Made by a program: the position numbers and the translations under genes. The notes beneath the pieces were generated by a model. That model made no database searches. It worked only from the letters and a program-made list of their open reading frames with translations, and was not told the DNA's origin. Below are positions 43,533 through 61,641 of a stretch of DNA of 64,000 nucleotides, in pieces. The stretch lies in assembly GCA_024711125.1 (NCBI GenBank), contig JANJTM010000071.1, positions 1 through 64,000 of the forward strand, given 5' to 3'. Source of the DNA: Rhodothermales bacterium. GTDB taxonomy: Bacteria; Bacteroidota; Rhodothermia; Rhodothermales; UBA10348. How positions within the stretch are numbered: the stretch's first letter is position 1; every line of letters begins with the position of its first letter.

Positions 43533-45677
43533 CTAATGGACCTTGAACCCGTCGGTGCCTTCGAACAGGACGACCCGGCGGGTACGGGAGTCGAAAAGCA
43601 GCGTGTCGGCAAGCACGTGCGCCGGCGCTTCGTACGGCGGTCCGTCGGCCACCGTGATGCGAACGACACGCGCGCCCGGCTCCACCGGCAGGGTTTCGAC
43701 CGCGATCGACGAACCGTCGCCGAACAGACCGCCCGGTTCGTAGGTCCTCTCGAGTACGTTAAGGCCGTCGACGGTTACCGAAAGCCGTACGGAATGGCGC
43801 CCCCTGTCGACCGATCGCGGGCGGCGCATGTGCGGAAGCACGTCCGAATCGTCGACCTCCTCCCCCGACTCAATGATGCGCCCGGCGTGCTTGAACGACA
43901 CCACCAGCGCCGGGCCGTCGGAACCGCGAGCCGGGAGCGGAAGATCAGACCCGGCCCAGGTAACGACGGCCAGGAGGACGGCCACCGTGACCGCGGCAGC
44001 GATCCGGGCCCCCGCGCCGAGTGGCCGATCCACGGCACCTGAGACCGCCCGGTCGTGAAGGCCCGCCCGGAACGAAGCCGCCTCCCGCGCCATCCGCCGG
44101 ATGGAGCCCGAATCCGGCCGCAGGTAGCGGACGCGCGCCGGATCGACCTGGTCGATGCGCAGCTTCGGACTGCGGCGCCCTGACAGGCGTTCGGCGGTCG
44201 TGTCGGCACCCTCCCGGCACGGTGCGTCCTGTCCGCACCCGACGATCAGAACCCCCGGCGCCCCATGCCGCAGGGCGCGCTCCACGGTCAGCATGTGTAC
44301 CCAACCCGCGCACGGCACGGGAAGCACACGGAAACCAGGCAATTCGGCGCACGAGCCGTCGGCCTCCACACGGAGACGACCGGCAGCGGATGCTCCGCAG
44401 ACGAACGCCACGCACGGGTTCTCCACGCCCTCCCCTGCCCCTGGCCCACGCGTCTGCACCGTCGTCCCCCCGGGGTCGGCGGCATGGTTCACCCACTTCC
44501 GCACGTCCAGCACGGGCAGGCGCGCGTTGTCGATCGCGGTGGAATCGCAGGAACCGACGCAGATTCCGCACCCCGTGCAACGGTCCGGGTCGATGAACGC
44601 CACGAACCCGCTCTCGCGCCCTTCCGACGGAGCCGGGAGCAGCGAAATCGCACCGAAGGGGCAATCCTTCCAGCATTGGGTGCAGCCGTTGCACCGCGCG
44701 CCGTCCACGACCGACGACACGACCCGGCGACGCGGCAGGAGCCACGGGACCCCATAGAAGACGATGGTCGCGAGCCCGAGGGCGATCCAGAGGGCTCCGC
44801 CCGACAGGCGCTCGATTACGAAGAGCGGTCCCAGGTACCAGTGATCGCCCGTGATGTCCCGCGCTGCGGCCTGCATGGCCGCCGGCTCGGCCGAGAGGGC
44901 CGGCTCTATGACCGAGAGCAGAACGAGCGTGCCGAGAAGCCAGGCGGTCAACGTCTTTCCGGCCAGGAACTTCGAGCGATCCACGCGCAGGATGTGCACC
45001 CACAGGAAGATGCCCATCGCCATGGGAATCAGCATGTGGATGAAGAACACCAGGAAGAACAGCAGCGAATTGACCGCCTCGTCGACGAGGAACGATCGCG
45101 CGATGGGGTCCGGGAAGATCGGAAGCACGTCGAGGAAGCGGGCCGTGGCCAGCGCGACGCGTTGCGCACGTTCGTCCCAGACCAGCCAGTACCCGGTCCA
45201 CCCGTCCAGCCAGAGCAGCCCGACGAGCAGCACCCCGGAGGTCCAGGCCAGCCACCGGGCGCCGGCGAATCTCCTCGTGGCGAGCGTCTGCAGGCCGTGC
45301 AGCAACACGAACGCCATGCACAGATCCGAACTGTACCGGTGCAGCGAGCGAAGGAGCTGCGGAAGGAACGAAAGCCCCTCGAGCGAGGCGTGGGCGTTCC
45401 CGACGCTCGCCCGATACCAGAACAGCAGCAGGATGCCGGTCACGAGCGCCACGAGGAACGACGTGTTGGCGACCGCCCCGGCCCGTGCAAACGGGTTCTC
45501 GCCCTCGCGCAGGAAGCGGGAGGCCCCGTTGGTCAGGCCGGCCAGCAGGCGTTCCAACGCACGCAGCACGGCCCCGCCGTGCGCTTCGGGGTCCGGGCGC
45601 GCCCTGTCGACCGCTCCCGGGACGAGGGAGGGCCGGCGACCGGGAGTGACGAACACCTCCTTCCGATCGCCGGCCAT
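43533..45677 (-). CDS. cytochrome b - 2x[4Fe-4S] - MvhD fusion membrane protein
   Basis: A 714-residue protein joining three redox modules. Residues about 60-315 are a cytochrome b N-terminal domain with both bis-His pairs at the classical 14-residue spacing (His113/His127 and His214/His228). Residues 329-377 hold two [4Fe-4S] motifs (Cys329/332/335/339 and Cys367/370/373/377). Residues about 420-530 resemble MvhD/FlpD, the hydrogenase/heterodisulfide-reductase iron-sulfur subunit, with Cys422, 427, 443, 456, 481 and 487. A last membrane helix (about 555-575) precedes a roughly 130-residue, probably extracytoplasmic beta domain. It would move electrons between cytosolic iron-sulfur partners and membrane hemes or quinones. 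Its stop-start junction overlaps the SCO gene, so it belongs to the oxidase-like cluster. Confidence 0.85.
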   Translation of the reverse strand: MAGDRKEVFVTPGRRPSLVPGAVDRARPDPEAHGGAVLRALERLLAGLTNGASRFLREGENPFARAGAVANTSFLVALVTGILLLFWYRASVGNAHASLEGLSFLPQLLRSLHRYSSDLCMAFVLLHGLQTLATRRFAGARWLAWTSGVLLVGLLWLDGWTGYWLVWDERAQRVALATARFLDVLPIFPDPIARSFLVDEAVNSLLFFLVFFIHMLIPMAMGIFLWVHILRVDRSKFLAGKTLTAWLLGTLVLLSVIEPALSAEPAAMQAAARDITGDHWYLGPLFVIERLSGGALWIALGLATIVFYGVPWLLPRRRVVSSVVDGARCNGCTQCWKDCPFGAISLLPAPSEGRESGFVAFIDPDRCTGCGICVGSCDSTAIDNARLPVLDVRKWVNHAADPGGTTVQTRGPGAGEGVENPCVAFVCGASAAGRLRVEADGSCAELPGFRVLPVPCAGWVHMLTVERALRHGAPGVLIVGCGQDAPCREGADTTAERLSGRRSPKLRIDQVDPARVRYLRPDSGSIRRMAREAASFRAGLHDRAVSGAVDRPLGAGARIAAAVTVAVLLAVVTWAGSDLPLPARGSDGPALVVSFKHAGRIIESGEEVDDSDVLPHMRRPRSVDRGRHSVRLSVTVDGLNVLERTYEPGGLFGDGSSIAVETLPVEPGARVVRITVADGPPYEAPAHVLADTLLFDSRTRRVVLFEGTDGFKVH

Positions 45678-46717
45678 CAGGCGTTGCCCTCTGCGTCAGG
45701 CGTCGGCAGGACCCGTCCGGACCGCGTCGCCCTCCCGCCCTCGCTCCCTCCGCCCGACCGATCGGACCGGGGCGTGACCCCCATCCCGCTTGCCGGCCCG
45801 TCAGCATCGGTCGTGGACTCGTTGATCACCAGCCGCAGTGCCTCGGTCAGCCACGCCTGCTGCAGCGGGCCCAGCGAAAACCGGAACGCGATGCGCCCGT
45901 CCCGGTCGATCACGTGCACGAGATTGGCGTGCTCGATCGCGCCGGTTTCCTCGTTGCGCACACGCGCGAAGCCGTACCGGTCGAGAATAGCCTCGACGAC
46001 GGCGGGTTCGCCCGTCACGGAATTCCACGACGGCGCCTCGACCCCGTGCAGGTCGGCCATCATCGCGAGCATTTCGGGGGTATCCTTTCGCGGATCCAGC
46101 GTGATAGCGACCACCGTCACCTGCGCTCTTTCCTCCGGAGACAATTCGGAAAGCGACGTCTTGATCTGCGTGACGATCTGCGGACAGGTGTCGTGACACG
46201 ATGCGTAGACCGCCGTCACCACCACGATCCGCCCCCGCAGATCTGCGAGCCGCAGCGGCTGCGATGCCTGGTTCACCAGTTCGAACGGCTCGGCTTCGAG
46301 CGCGGTGCGGATGGAATCCCCGGGGAATGCGCTGGTATCGGCCGGGGTCGAGGGCGGAAACATTGCCGGAAGCGTGAACCCGAGCGAGGCCGTGGCAAGA
46401 AGCACCAGCGCCGCGAAACGCACCACCCGGCCCCGGATGAAGTGCCAGGCCCAGGCCACCGGCGCCCGCCAGACGACCAGGATGAGACCCGCCACCAGCA
46501 GGGGCTGGACGAGGTACATCCACAGGTAGGCCCACTCGAACGATCCGGTGGCCGCGTCGTACCCGAAACACCAGCGCTTGAAGTCCTCGGCGAACGCGTA
46601 CGCCGCGCCGGCCGACGGCGGTACCAACAGGGTCGAACCCATGAGCACGACCGCCCCCAGCAGCAGCGTCACCGCAGCCACCGGAAATCTCCAGCCTTCG
46701 AAAAAGGAGCGCATCAT
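45677..46717 (-). CDS. SCO1/SenC-type copper chaperone with N-terminal membrane domain
   Basis: A 346-residue protein. Residues about 10-120 hold three hydrophobic segments not usual in SCO proteins (which have one anchor). Residues about 125-295 are SCO/thioredoxin-like with the copper motif Cys174-HDT-Cys178 and the distant His in AIEHANLVHVID. A Gly/Ser-rich tail follows. SCO proteins deliver copper to the CuA site of subunit II and act as thiol reductants. The gene lies between subunit I and the cytochrome b fusion on one strand, and its stop overlaps the next start (TGATG), so it is part of the operon. Confidence 0.88.
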   Translation of the reverse strand: MMRSFFEGWRFPVAAVTLLLGAVVLMGSTLLVPPSAGAAYAFAEDFKRWCFGYDAATGSFEWAYLWMYLVQPLLVAGLILVVWRAPVAWAWHFIRGRVVRFAALVLLATASLGFTLPAMFPPSTPADTSAFPGDSIRTALEAEPFELVNQASQPLRLADLRGRIVVVTAVYASCHDTCPQIVTQIKTSLSELSPEERAQVTVVAITLDPRKDTPEMLAMMADLHGVEAPSWNSVTGEPAVVEAILDRYGFARVRNEETGAIEHANLVHVIDRDGRIAFRFSLGPLQQAWLTEALRLVINESTTDADGPASGMGVTPRSDRSGGGSEGGRATRSGRVLPTPDAEGNA

Positions 46718-46798: not shown

Positions 46799-48517
46799 TC
46801 AGCGCACCGGCCACACGTCGGTGAGCGCCATCCAGTTGGCGAAGTAGTACACGACGAACGCGAGCAGCAGCACGAACACCAGCGTCAACGTACCGGGCGT
46901 GCGGTGCGACTGCTTCACGTACGCCTCGTCACGCAGGTTGTATATGGCCACGTTCTGCGCCATCGCCTCGGGCGACTGCCAGAAATGCATCGGGGACCCT
47001 GCGTTCGACCTGCCGAAAAACACGGCGGCGACGACGAGCAGGATGAAGAGCAGCGCGCCCAGGAACGCGATCGTTCCGCCCACACCCACCACGCCGAGCA
47101 TGAAGTGGGCACCCGCGTCAAAACCGGCCGGGATGTTGGCGCCCGTGAAATCCACGTCCCAATGCCGGCGGGGCACTCCGTAGGAGCCGGCGAAGGACAT
47201 TCCGATCGACATGATCACGATCCCCGCGGCGAACACGTACGGCTGGATACGGCAGAGCCGCCGCAGGGTGAACTCCTTCTGGAAGAGCAGCGGAACCACG
47301 TAGTAGGTCAGCCCCATGAACGCCAGCGTCGTGCCGCCAACGACGGTCGCGTGGAAGTGGCCCGGGATACGCAACGTGTTGTGCGCGATGATGTTGATCT
47401 GCTCGGTGCCGAGCGTCACGCCGGTGATCCCGCCGATGAACCCGAAGATGATCATCGAGAGCGCGGTCGAAGAGAAACCCGGATCGTGCCAGGGAGCCTT
47501 GGCAAGCCACGTGAAGAGTCCTTTCGTATGCCCCTTGAGGCGCAGGGCCACCTCCATCGACGAGGGGATCGTAAACGCGTGCACGAGCGACGCCAGGACG
47601 GCGAGGTACATCACGTAGGAGGTGTTCCAGATCTTCCACGAGGCCGTCAGCCCGGGGTCCACGAGGAGGTGGTGCGCGCTGGCCACGTTGATGAACAGGA
47701 TGTAGAGCACGAACGCCCCGCGCGACACGGTCTCGTTGATGGGCTTGGCGCCGGTCGTAAGGGTCGCGAGGAAGTACCAGATGGCGACCATCGCACACAG
47801 GTTCACCTGCTGCGCGGGGTGGCCGAGGCCCCACCACATGAGCCTGTACCATCCCGGGTCGGGCTCGGGCGTCCATCCGAGCGACCACGTGAGGGTCGGA
47901 ATGAGCGCGATCGCCCCGTGCGCGAGCGTGAATACTCCGATGATCGCCGCCGCCAGCGCGCCGAACGTCACGAGGGGCATCGAGCCCTCGTACGTCTTCT
48001 GCCGCATCGCCTGGTAGAGTGTCACGAAGAACAGGATGATGCCGGTGAGCGCCCCGACCGCGACCAGGATCATGCCGAGGTAGAACAGCGGATGCGCCAT
48101 CAGCGGCGGGTACGACGTCATCAGCACGTCGCCCTTCCCGACCAGGATGATCCAGTCCGTGATCAGCGCGCCGGCCAGCATGAGCCCGAGGGACAGCCAA
48201 GCGACGGGTTTCGAGGCCAGCCGGGCGTTGAGCAGCGTGGTGCAGCAGAAATACAGGACCGCCACTTCGAAGAAGAGGATCCAGAAAATCAGCATGTTGA
48301 TGCCGTGCAACGTCAGGATGCGGTAGTACCAGACGTCATTCAGCAGGTGCACGGCCGACCAGCGGGTAAGCGCGAGCAGCAGGGCCGCGATCGCGCCGAC
48401 GAGCAGGAAGACGACCGCCGCGACCGCGTTGGCGCGGATGAAGAACTGCGCCCTGAGGCAGACCGTCAGCCCCGTCGAGGGGCAGGTCCGCGATTCGCCG
48501 GTGAGGAAATTGCCCAT
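46799..48517 (-). CDS. heme-copper oxidase subunit I, Tyr-to-Gln active site (possible NO reductase)
   Basis: A 572-residue integral membrane protein with twelve or more helices. All six metal-binding His are present: His71 (LHGIN) and His389 for the low-spin heme, His387 or His379 region (IAHNTLRIPGHFHATV) for the high-spin heme, and His233, His282, His283 (GLGHPAQQVN, SAHHLLVD) for CuB. In oxygen reductases of the A and B types the residue four after the first CuB His is the crosslinked Tyr (HPEVY-like); here it is Gln237. The C-type alternative Tyr position would need checking. Subunit II, SCO and a small subunit are encoded next to it. Either a divergent oxidase or a member of the NO-reducing heme-copper families (such as eNOR) is possible. 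Confidence 0.88.
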   Translation of the reverse strand: MGNFLTGESRTCPSTGLTVCLRAQFFIRANAVAAVVFLLVGAIAALLLALTRWSAVHLLNDVWYYRILTLHGINMLIFWILFFEVAVLYFCCTTLLNARLASKPVAWLSLGLMLAGALITDWIILVGKGDVLMTSYPPLMAHPLFYLGMILVAVGALTGIILFFVTLYQAMRQKTYEGSMPLVTFGALAAAIIGVFTLAHGAIALIPTLTWSLGWTPEPDPGWYRLMWWGLGHPAQQVNLCAMVAIWYFLATLTTGAKPINETVSRGAFVLYILFINVASAHHLLVDPGLTASWKIWNTSYVMYLAVLASLVHAFTIPSSMEVALRLKGHTKGLFTWLAKAPWHDPGFSSTALSMIIFGFIGGITGVTLGTEQINIIAHNTLRIPGHFHATVVGGTTLAFMGLTYYVVPLLFQKEFTLRRLCRIQPYVFAAGIVIMSIGMSFAGSYGVPRRHWDVDFTGANIPAGFDAGAHFMLGVVGVGGTIAFLGALLFILLVVAAVFFGRSNAGSPMHFWQSPEAMAQNVAIYNLRDEAYVKQSHRTPGTLTLVFVLLLAFVVYYFANWMALTDVWPVR

Positions 48518-48523
48518 GGCGCG

Positions 48524-49048
48524 TTACTCCACGATGATGCGGCCGGTCATCATGTGATGGCCGATTCCGCAGAATTCGTTGCACACGATGCTGAATTCGC
48601 CGGTCGTCGTCGGGGTGAGCGTCAGCACGTGGTCGTACCCCGGAAGGACCTGGAAATTCATGTTCATCGGAAGGAGCGAGAGTCCGTGCTGGATGTCGTA
48701 CGACGACACGTGAAGCCGGTACGTCTGGTCCTTCTTCAGCTTCAGCACGGGAAACCAGCGCCACATCTGGCCCATCAGGTAGATGTCGCTGCCCGGTGCG
48801 GGCTCTGCGATGGGCACTCCGTTCACTTCCCCCGCCTTGTTGGCGTTCGTGAACGCCATCACGCGGTCCAGGAAGGCCTCCTGTTCGACGCGGTACGATT
48901 CGCCGGTCGAATTCTGCTTGCCCTTGAAATGCGCGTACGGCATCGCGGCGAACAGCACCAGACACCAGACGAAGCCGGCGCCGATCCAGAGGCGTTCGCT
49001 CCCCCCGGGAGCCTGGAACCACCCGTCGGGCGGCGGATGAATGCTCAT
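48524..49048 (-). CDS. heme-copper oxidase subunit II with CuA site
   Basis: A 174-residue protein with one N-terminal membrane helix (about 19-37) and a cupredoxin domain. The dinuclear CuA ligands are complete: His121, Cys156, Glu158, Cys160, His164 and Met167 (motif CNEFCGIGHHMM). The length is that of short B-type (ba3-like) subunits II, and no fused cytochrome c is present, so the electron donor should be a separate cytochrome c or cupredoxin. It lies 6 bp upstream of subunit I. CuA speaks for cytochrome c rather than quinol as donor. Confidence 0.92.
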   Translation of the reverse strand: MSIHPPPDGWFQAPGGSERLWIGAGFVWCLVLFAAMPYAHFKGKQNSTGESYRVEQEAFLDRVMAFTNANKAGEVNGVPIAEPAPGSDIYLMGQMWRWFPVLKLKKDQTYRLHVSSYDIQHGLSLLPMNMNFQVLPGYDHVLTLTPTTTGEFSIVCNEFCGIGHHMMTGRIIVE

Positions 49049-49057
49049 GATCTCACC

Positions 49058-49240
49058 TCAGGGAAGCTGTGCCGGGGGCATCGAGAGGATCTCGATCCAT
49101 CCCCAGACCGTGTAGGACAGGAAGGGGATCAGGAAACCCAGGGCGAGCAGAAGCCATGGGTTGTCCATCAGGCGTTGTAGCGGGTGTTTCCTGGGTGCGT
49201 CCATGTCGATCGGGTCGTTGGGTCCGGGTAGACTCGGCAT
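49058..49240 (-). CDS. 60-residue single-helix protein, probable small oxidase subunit
   Basis: MPSLPGPNDP... followed by one membrane helix (NPWLLLALGFLIPFLSYTVWGW) and a short polar tail. Nine bases separate its stop from the subunit II start, so it opens the cluster. Size, single helix and position fit subunit IIa of ba3-type oxidases. The Met at 49240 was chosen because a -7 element lies just upstream; an in-frame Met at 49204 would give 48 residues. Confidence 0.75.
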   Translation of the reverse strand: MPSLPGPNDPIDMDAPRKHPLQRLMDNPWLLLALGFLIPFLSYTVWGWIEILSMPPAQLP

Positions 49241-58777: not shown

Positions 58778-61641
58778 TCTTCTTCCGCCTCCTCCGGAAC
58801 CGATCCGAGCAGGCCGAGCCCGAGGAGGGCCCCGAGCCGCGGATCGACGTGATTCGGCACCCTTTCCGGGTCGAAGCCCGCGATCCCCTTCCGCACCCAG
58901 CGGACCGCCTCTTTCGCGATTTCCATCGCCTCCTCGAGGATAGCCTCGTCCCACTCCACGAACACCTCGCGCACCTCGGCCGGCCGGGCCGGAATCGGCA
59001 CGTATCCCAGGCGGACCCGCCCGGCCTCCGATCCGGCGGCCAGGCGACGGCCGTCGCGGTGCTCCAGGCTGGGGAGCAGCCACCGGTACAGCGGAAGCTG
59101 CAGGTCGATCCAGTCTCCGTCTGCGGTCCGGTGTTCCTTGTCGGGATCCTTCGCCTTGTCGCCGGTCTTGTAATCGAACAGGGCCCATTCGCCGGTCCCG
59201 GCATGGAATTCCACCCGGTCGACCCGTCCCTTGATCGGGAAGCGGGTGCCGTCCACCTCGAGCGGCACCCCTTCGTCCGGGGTGCGCGCCTCGGTCGCGA
59301 CCACGCGCCACCCGGCGCGGATGCGGCCCGCATGCCACTCGGCCACCCGGTGCAAGCGGGCCCGCGCCTGCTCGACCTGGAGACGCACCGCCACGCGGGC
59401 ATCGCGCGCGCCCGTCCCGAATCGAACGGCCACCTCGTCGTCCAGCTTCCGGTCGAGATGGCGCTTCAGCGCCTCGACGTCCGTCGACGACGACGCCGGC
59501 TCTGCGCCCAGCGACTCGAGCACGGCGTGCATCAGGGTTCCGAACAGGCCGCCGTCCATCTCGCGGGCATGGTCGTCGATCGGCTCGCAGCCTCGACCGG
59601 TCGACAACGCCCATCCATACGGATCCTGCAGGATGGAGCGGAACTGGGTCACCGACAGCACCTCGGGCGGCCGAAAACGCAGCATGGGCTCGGGCGGAAG
59701 AGCAATGGCCCTCCCGCCCGGCGGATCGGTCGCCGGACCCGGCGGCAAGGACTCCGGAACGCCGTCCCCGTCCGGGGCCACGAACTCCGCATCGTAGAAG
59801 CGGCGAACCCGGCGCGCCACCGTGGCCCCATCGGCCGCAAACAACAGCCGCGAGGGACGAAGCGGATTGCCGTCGGCGTCCCAGCGGCCCGAGACGACGA
59901 GAAACGCTTCCGTCGACATCGCGACGGCCGAGAGCCGATAGGCGTCCCGGGCGTATCGCGACCGGTTGTCCGACAGGCCGAGACGGGCACGAAGCCCGTT
60001 CGGCAGGAATGCGTCGTGGGCCACCGATTCCGGCAGCCAGGGTTCATTGGCGCCGACGAGCACCGCGATCGGCGCATCGTCCATGTGCAATTCGAGCCAA
60101 CCGAGGAGCTCGACGGCGTTCCGGTCCTGCGGGTTCGGAATTGCTCGTCTCGCCGCCCGCTCGACGATCAGTCGGATGGCAACGGCCGCCGCGCAGGGCG
60201 GGTCGAGCGTGCGGGGGACGCGCGAGAATGCCCGGATTCCTTCGCCGAGCTGCTCCAGCGCCTGGATGGCCACGCGGTGGGACGGGAGACCGGCCCGCCA
60301 CGTGCGGCCGGAGTAGACCTCGGCCAGCAGCACGAGAAGCGGCTCCACCCACTCCCGCAGCGTGCGCGAGCCCGCGGACCGCAGCGGCTCGAGCAGTCCC
60401 GATCGCAGGGCCGATACCAGCGTGTTCGCCGCTTCGCCGTCCCCGGTCGATCTACCGACTCCCCGCAGGTTGTCGGGCAGCCGGTCCGGCAGATGCTGAA
60501 CGTACCAGCGATCGGCCCGCGCAAGGACGTCGTCGGCATCGTGGCCGTTCCCGGCCAGCCATTCGCCCACGTCGGGATGGCGTGCGAGCGCCGCCATCGG
60601 CTCCCACCGATCGGCGTCGAGCGCGTCGGCCACCGCGAGCAGCAGGCGGAAGGGGGCGGTCCGTACCGGGTCCACCCCGGAGGCATCACGGACCGAAACC
60701 CCGACGGCCGAAAGACGCTCGGCGATCCACGGGACCACGTCGGGTGACGACACGGCGACCGCCACATCGTCCGGTGCCCGATCCGAAGCGGCGTCACCGA
60801 GAAAGCCGGCCACGGCGTCGGCCTGGTCTCCCGGCTTGTCCACGACCCGGAGCGCGGTTTCGGGCAGCGGCAGGTCGGCGGAGGACCACGATTCGGGCAG
60901 GACGCATCCGAACGCGTCGAACCGGTCGGCAATCGCCTCCGGCGCGTGCACGAGCACGTGCACCCGATCCCGGACCGCCTCGAGAAGGCGCCGGGTCACC
61001 ATCGGCATCTCGGCCACACCCACGAGCCACACGTCGGACGGGGTTCCGGTGCGCCCGTCGCCGAGCGCGCGGATGCGCTCGAGATCGCGATCCGCCAGCC
61101 CGCACCCGGCCAGCAGCGCTTCGTAGCGCTCCTGGACATCGGCGAGCACCCGCCAGCGATCGGCGTCGCTCCCGTCGGGGACAGCCGCGGCGGCCAGGAC
61201 ATCCGTCACGCCTGCGAACCGGAACCCACCCTGCGCCACATCCCTGTGCAACCGTTCGAGTTCGGCGGCTAGCGACGACCACTCGGCGAGCGCCCCGTCC
61301 TCCGGTCGGCGCACGAACACCCGGTCGAGGCCCGGCGTGTCGCGCAGCGCGGCGATCCAGGCCAGGCGCGCCGCCTCGCCCGTCGCGACCATGGCACCGG
61401 GCGCGACCAGGATCTCCGGCAGCGCACCGACCGTGATGATCCGCGGCGGCACGAGAGCGATCGCACCCGTGCGAGCCCGTTCCTCGAGCAGTTCCTTCAG
61501 GCGCCGACCCGCCCGCGCGCCGGGCACGACGACGAGCGCCGCGTCCATGCGGCACGACAAGCCGTCGACATGGTGCCCGAGCAGCACGTCGGCGGCCGCC
61601 GGCAGGGCGGGACGGGACCAGTCGAGGAAAATGCGGAGCAT
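58774..61641 (-). CDS. addB: AddB-type nuclease/helicase-like subunit without Fe-S cysteines
   Basis: A 955-residue partner of AddA. The N-terminal half is helicase-like without a Walker A (ALVVVPGARAGRRLKELLEE). The C-terminal nuclease is complete: SVTQFRSILQDPYGWAL, GTLMHAVLESLG, IKGRVDRVEF, LFDYKTGDK and QLPLYRWLLP. The Cys that holds the iron-sulfur cluster in Bacillus AddB is replaced (DPYGW in place of CPF) and no C-terminal Cys cluster exists, as in alphaproteobacterial AddB. The start is uncertain: Met at 61641 best fits the domain start; 61677 and 61701 are possible; 61746 lies upstream of the promoter element. Confidence 0.88.
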   Translation of the reverse strand: MLRIFLDWSRPALPAAADVLLGHHVDGLSCRMDAALVVVPGARAGRRLKELLEERARTGAIALVPPRIITVGALPEILVAPGAMVATGEAARLAWIAALRDTPGLDRVFVRRPEDGALAEWSSLAAELERLHRDVAQGGFRFAGVTDVLAAAAVPDGSDADRWRVLADVQERYEALLAGCGLADRDLERIRALGDGRTGTPSDVWLVGVAEMPMVTRRLLEAVRDRVHVLVHAPEAIADRFDAFGCVLPESWSSADLPLPETALRVVDKPGDQADAVAGFLGDAASDRAPDDVAVAVSSPDVVPWIAERLSAVGVSVRDASGVDPVRTAPFRLLLAVADALDADRWEPMAALARHPDVGEWLAGNGHDADDVLARADRWYVQHLPDRLPDNLRGVGRSTGDGEAANTLVSALRSGLLEPLRSAGSRTLREWVEPLLVLLAEVYSGRTWRAGLPSHRVAIQALEQLGEGIRAFSRVPRTLDPPCAAAVAIRLIVERAARRAIPNPQDRNAVELLGWLELHMDDAPIAVLVGANEPWLPESVAHDAFLPNGLRARLGLSDNRSRYARDAYRLSAVAMSTEAFLVVSGRWDADGNPLRPSRLLFAADGATVARRVRRFYDAEFVAPDGDGVPESLPPGPATDPPGGRAIALPPEPMLRFRPPEVLSVTQFRSILQDPYGWALSTGRGCEPIDDHAREMDGGLFGTLMHAVLESLGAEPASSSTDVEALKRHLDRKLDDEVAVRFGTGARDARVAVRLQVEQARARLHRVAEWHAGRIRAGWRVVATEARTPDEGVPLEVDGTRFPIKGRVDRVEFHAGTGEWALFDYKTGDKAKDPDKEHRTADGDWIDLQLPLYRWLLPSLEHRDGRRLAAGSEAGRVRLGYVPIPARPAEVREVFVEWDEAILEEAMEIAKEAVRWVRKGIAGFDPERVPNHVDPRLGALLGLGLLGSVPEEAEEE

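Follow-up and report, generated by a model that had tools for sequence, protein, structure and literature searches.

A probable eNOR-type nitric oxide reductase and its gene neighborhood in a Rhodothermales bacterium

Two adjacent genes in the window (the whole 64,000-nucleotide stretch of Rhodothermales DNA analyzed here) very probably encode a nitric oxide reductase of the eNOR family, a heme-copper enzyme of B-type descent. Subunit I and the CuA-bearing subunit II together resemble an O2-respiring enzyme, but the pair carries the eNOR fingerprint. Because Gln at the site of the active-site Tyr is the published diagnostic of eNOR, for which a CuA-type subunit II and a single predicted proton channel are described (PMC8756737), the pair is, judged from its sequence, a new example of a known family. 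That family has been biochemically characterized as a nitric oxide reductase (PMC11388526). Since the usual annotation of an eNOR is cytochrome c oxidase, the capacity to form N2O is overlooked in such genomes. The accessory cassette around the enzyme is the part that deserves follow-up.

The catalytic subunit and its CuA partner

Subunit I (46799..48517, minus strand; 572 amino acids; PF00115, 228 bits) is the heme/CuB catalytic subunit, and the six histidines that bind the hemes and CuB are all kept (H71, H233, H282, H283, H387 and H389). These residues are invariant across 34 eNORs; in a wider set there is a single exception, a Lys at the position of H389 in Thermus. The exception concerns the plasmid-borne eNORs of Thermus thermophilus (L040:7986-9668, L152 and L153), where GHFK is found in place of the GHFH of all others. 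Three strains give the same reading, and in these enzymes Lys appears to serve as one of the axial ligands of the low-spin heme.

Among solved structures the best match to subunit I by sequence alignment is to ba3-type oxidases, and the AlphaFold model (pLDDT 86) has the ba3 oxidase 1xme as its top PDB match (TM 0.78–0.80). Helix VI reads Q236-Q237-x-N239 where ba3 has V-Y-x-W, and a phmmer alignment sets Gln237 upon ba3 Tyr237 ('GHPAQQVN' against 'GHPIVYFW'). A joint alignment returned Q236/Q237/N239 in all 37 eNORs and V/Y/W in all 12 B-type enzymes. The 80 named eNOR loci were picked partly by the QQ pattern, so that Gln in these is not independent evidence. In 148 related genomes, an unbiased search found Q at position 237 in 21 of 21 relatives (41–81% identity), and Tyr in all B-type homologues examined from the same search (approximately 30–36% identity). 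Given Gln in every one of the 21 relatives and Tyr in the B-types, these alignments rule out an isolated substitution or sequencing error and mark Gln237 as a feature of the clade.

One way to compensate for a missing Tyr is seen in cbb3 oxidases, including the host's own and FixN, which have a Tyr six positions before the residue equivalent to H282. In the joint alignment this position of subunit I is Ile276, so the protein has no cbb3-type replacement Tyr on helix VII. There are, in terms of sequence position only, eNOR-specific Tyr residues at 272, 301 and 304, which are common to the eNOR of Rhodothermus marinus; Y301 and Y304, both on helix VIII, are near-invariant in the joint alignment.

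Subunit II (48524..49048, minus strand) is a membrane-anchored cupredoxin of 174 amino acids with a CoxB-type CuA domain that matches PF00116 at the cut-off. Its CuA site is complete (H121, C156, E158, C160, H164 and M167), and the ligands are conserved in 104–105 of 105 homologues. The first-pass annotation had reported the six His ligands, a Gln in place of the cross-linked Tyr and an intact CuA site, and each of these was recovered here. Neither outcome that it had named as refuting its call, a place inside a proven O2-reductase clade or a Tyr brought in from another helix, was observed: the cbb3-type Tyr of helix VII is missing, although Y301 and Y304 of helix VIII stay candidates by sequence position.

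These residues suggest how the enzyme may work. The electron donor would be a periplasmic cytochrome c or a cupredoxin; electrons would enter at the CuA of subunit II and pass by way of the low-spin heme (His71/His389) to the heme (His387) and CuB (His233, His282 and His283) of subunit I. There, 2 NO + 2 e- + 2 H+ would yield N2O + H2O, with NO the presumed substrate in this host. Gln237, together with Gln236 and Asn239, would stand in for the redox-active Tyr used in O2 reduction. Protons would probably be drawn from the cytoplasm along a modified K-type path: going by sequence position only, Tyr248 and Ser310 are kept, His313 replaces Thr312, and Glu84 is invariant.

Family placement and the fate of nitrogen oxides

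In a maximum-likelihood tree (LG+C20) the window's subunit I and the eNOR of R. marinus (L017) fall in one clade with support of 100/100, and 14 B-family O2 reductases form a separate clade (99/95) that does not include the window protein. The R. marinus DSM 4252 genome (G042) was identified by way of plasmid pRMAR01, with 100% identity and identical coordinates; the eNOR of this species was reportedly characterized by Murali et al. (PNAS, 2024). The window protein is approximately 42% identical to the R. marinus enzyme and belongs to another eNOR subclade with another gene neighborhood; a near relative of 80% identity (L115) is likewise from a Rhodothermales bacterium. The first-pass annotation had put forward a candidate NO reductase, with a pointer to the eNOR family of R. 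marinus, to be checked by just such a tree, and both Gln237 and the position of the protein, outside the O2 reductases and inside the R. marinus eNOR clade, bear this call out. The annotation had made no mention of three further genes, the small third gene, the SCO gene and the cytochrome b/FeS/FlpD gene, which are described below.

Several points tell against the eNOR reading: identity to the R. marinus enzyme is only approximately 42%, subclade and gene neighborhood differ from those of R. marinus, NirK, NirS and NarG were not found that could point to a source of NO in the host, and Y301 or Y304 of helix VIII might replace the missing Tyr. It is conceivable that the protein is an O2 reductase of the B-family in which the Tyr was lost, or that it mainly reduces O2 even now, by means of a radical on another residue, such as Tyr301 or Tyr304 of helix VIII. 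The nearest fold is indeed that of ba3 oxidase, Y248 and S310 of the K-path are retained, and the two helix VIII Tyr residues are eNOR-specific and near-invariant. However, the protein lacks a Tyr at the fourth position after the first CuB His and lies outside the B-family clade, in a separate clade of strong support that includes an eNOR; NO reduction has been reported for that family. Moreover, the entire helix VI motif is swapped (QQxN for VYxW), and O2 reductases of the A-type and cbb3 kinds are already present in the genome. We consider either version of this reading very improbable.

Assignment to another CuA-type NO reductase family (sNOR, bNOR/CuANOR, gNOR or nNOR) is more improbable still. 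These families are also related to the B-family, and cupredoxin subunits II occur in several of them (PMC8756737, PMC11388526). At the Tyr site, however, where the window protein has Gln237, Table A4 of PMC8756737 gives Asn or Asp for sNOR, CuANOR and gNOR, and the window protein groups with the R. marinus eNOR in a tree whose reference sequences came from outside these four families. The features of cNOR and qNOR (an active-site Glu, with NorC or a fused quinol-oxidizing domain) are likewise missing from the pair, which has Gln and a CuA subunit II instead.

As an eNOR, the enzyme would be the sole NOR-type member among three heme-copper proteins in the genome, the others being the A-type and the cbb3 enzyme. 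The genome also has a clade II NosZ (933 bits, contig C24), so that N2O released by the eNOR would be usable, and an NrfA (contig C50). NirK, NirS and NarG gave no match above the cut-off in the host genome, and a source of NO inside the host, other than NrfA, is thus not evident. The term 'terminator' denotes nosZ with nor and without nir (PMC12569097), and by gene content the host genome fits it. Because NosZ and nor are present and nir was not found, detoxification of NO, or use of NO made by neighbors, is more likely than complete denitrification. The host would consume both NO and N2O without an obvious NO-making nitrite reductase of its own.

Related eNORs adjoin nitrogen-oxide genes, which favors the NO reductase reading: the neighbor is NirK in Ardenticatena (PMC4653789), and in Thermus the eNOR genes are followed by an Rrf2 regulator gene and one for a DUF542 protein. 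In an Oligoflexia locus (L102:7318-8823, minus strand) the gene beside eNOR encodes a multicopper oxidase/cupredoxin plus cytochrome c protein, possibly a NirK-type nitrite reductase fused to cytochrome c. CyoE (heme o synthase) adjoins eNOR in Thermomicrobium and Defluviimonas and was not found in the window. One genome (G019, contig C91) holds two equal-scoring eNOR copies in opposite orientation (59015-60673 and 172898-174556), which represent either a recent duplication or an assembly artefact. FNR/DNR-type boxes (TTGATN4ATCAA) upstream of the operon were rejected as a regulatory signal: they are weakly enriched relative to shuffles in the set of loci, the window has none (the best candidate has three mismatches), and the region overlaps coding DNA.

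A small third gene and the accessory genes

Upstream of subunit II, with its stop approximately 9 bases before that gene, lies an open reading frame for a protein of 48 amino acids (MDAPRKHPLQRLMDNPWLLLALGFLIPFLSYTVWGWIEILSMPPAQLP; 49058..49204, minus strand; start codon uncertain), which has one hydrophobic helix and the pattern D-N-x-W-L-L...S-Y-x-x-W-G. Among 104 eNOR loci, 99 have the motif immediately before the subunit II gene, R. marinus included, whereas it occurs in 21 of 2080 control windows. A degenerate form is present in at least some of the loci missed. Substitutions relative to L046 number 8, 7 and 19 by codon position; because they are concentrated at third positions, the frame behaves as a coding gene. 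No Pfam family matched the protein even at E=10. Its form and location mark it as a probable third eNOR subunit. The ba3 oxidase has a small subunit IIa, to which the 48-residue protein is, by analogy, likely comparable.

Downstream of subunit I are two further genes on the minus strand. The first (45677..46717; 346 amino acids; PF02630, 80 bits) encodes a copper chaperone of the SCO1/SenC type, in which approximately 135 N-terminal residues make up a membrane part. The second (43533..45677; 714 amino acids) encodes a fusion protein whose parts were delimited by Pfam, conservation and AlphaFold: a cytochrome b domain, two [4Fe-4S] clusters, an FlpD domain and a beta domain. Of the named loci, 65 have 2.5 kb or more of DNA downstream; in these, SCO comes after subunit I with the same orientation in at least 59, and the fusion or a relative is found downstream on the same strand in 54 and divergently upstream in seven. 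These loci span Rhodothermota, Balneolota, Calditrichota, Myxococcota, Verrucomicrobiota, Planctomycetota, Spirochaetota, Gemmatimonadota and others. Among the 148 related genomes, the fusion is present in exactly the ten that carry the eNOR type of 66–100% identity; the remainder have no fusion, with one weak match to the cytochrome b part only. Neither SCO nor the fusion stands beside the R. marinus eNOR.

The AlphaFold model of the fusion (pLDDT 89) matches the fold of cytochrome b6/bc1. Four invariant histidines (H113, H127, H214 and H228) have the cytochrome b spacing expected for two b hemes, eight invariant cysteines would hold the two [4Fe-4S] clusters, and the FlpD/MvhD-like domain has three largely conserved cysteines. 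At the C-terminus a single transmembrane helix leads to a periplasmic all-beta domain, which has no Pfam family even at E=10 and in which H616 occurs in 37 of 38 sequences and M617 is nearly invariant. Membership of the CcoG family was rejected: the fusion does not match the CcoG/RdxA/FixG model TIGR02745, and the sole match to that model in the genome is the CcoG at the cbb3 cluster (contig C79). A literature search found no papers on FlpD–cytochrome b fusions.

SCO proteins hand copper to CuA sites, and CcoG has a C-terminal beta domain. On account of the former and, by analogy only, of CcoG, a membrane protein that reduces copper for cbb3 assembly (PMC13038864), SCO and the fusion most likely form a dedicated accessory module for the copper loading of CuA and CuB. 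A single membrane protein that combines two b hemes with two [4Fe-4S] clusters and an MvhD-like domain, and that is strictly linked to the window's eNOR type, is also what might be expected of an electron-input subunit, one that feeds eNOR from quinol or a cytosolic donor and has no part in copper maturation. For the fusion such a role is a serious alternative, if the less likely one: electron entry is already provided by CuA, the gene that usually lies between eNOR and the fusion is SCO, the R. marinus-type eNOR has no fusion beside it, and the conserved periplasmic His-Met of the fusion suggests the handling of metal. The choice bears on the accessory module alone and leaves the identity of the enzyme untouched.

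A different gene precedes the eNOR operon in approximately half of related loci, across many phyla. It encodes a heme-copper oxidase paralogue of 470–500 amino acids (for example L052:7793-9247, L048:7930-9336 and L080:7783-9225, all on the plus strand, and approximately 40 further eNOR loci) and is missing from the window genome and its nearest kin. The paralogues form their own clade (100/100) and match Pfam COX1 weakly or not at all. The heme ligands and first CuB His are kept; since both histidines of the HH pair are gone (A, S or G, and P, in their place), CuB should be absent from the protein. Its possible roles are those of a heme-only pseudoenzyme, an NO sensor or an assembly factor; we found no papers on heme-copper oxidase pseudoenzymes. 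Rrf2-family genes stand divergent from the paralogue and eNOR operon in several loci (L048:7230-7652, L052:6995-7438 and L070:7036-7530, all on the minus strand), and NO- or Fe-S-sensing control is possible.

We tentatively propose that eNORs of the larger subclade, the window enzyme among them, are more than two-subunit enzymes and lie at the core of a conserved, multi-phylum respiratory cassette, comprising a previously unrecognized third subunit, SCO and a new membrane oxidoreductase needed for copper or electrons, with the CuB-less paralogue added in many relatives. Our literature search found no description of a conserved accessory gene set around eNOR. Such genes offer a handle on the assembly and feeding of a CuA-type NO reductase, and are a better marker for the window's eNOR subclade than the oxidase-like subunit I alone.

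Comparison with known systems

The fusion shares with the cupric reductase CcoG/RdxA its nature as a 4Fe-4S membrane protein, a C-terminal beta domain and a place in a heme-copper enzyme cluster; it differs in the added cytochrome b and FlpD domains and in its lack of a match to the CcoG model. Compared to eNORs of Chloroflexi and other phyla (PMC8756737; Ardenticatena, PMC4653789), the window enzyme has the same active-site Gln and the same order of genes, with subunit II upstream of subunit I, but where the Ardenticatena operon holds NirK, that of the window holds SCO and the cytochrome b fusion. With the eNOR of R. marinus DSM 4252 it shares the 100/100 clade, the GHxxQQxN motif, the CuA subunit II and the one-helix gene upstream, whereas identity is approximately 42% and the R. 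marinus locus has an adjacent AraC-type regulator and no SCO or cytochrome b/FlpD genes. The ba3 oxidase of T. thermophilus (1xme) has the same overall fold, ligands, CuA subunit II and part of the K-path; the difference lies in its Tyr237, Val236 and Trp239, which are Gln, Gln and Asn in the window protein, and in its Thr312, which is replaced by His.
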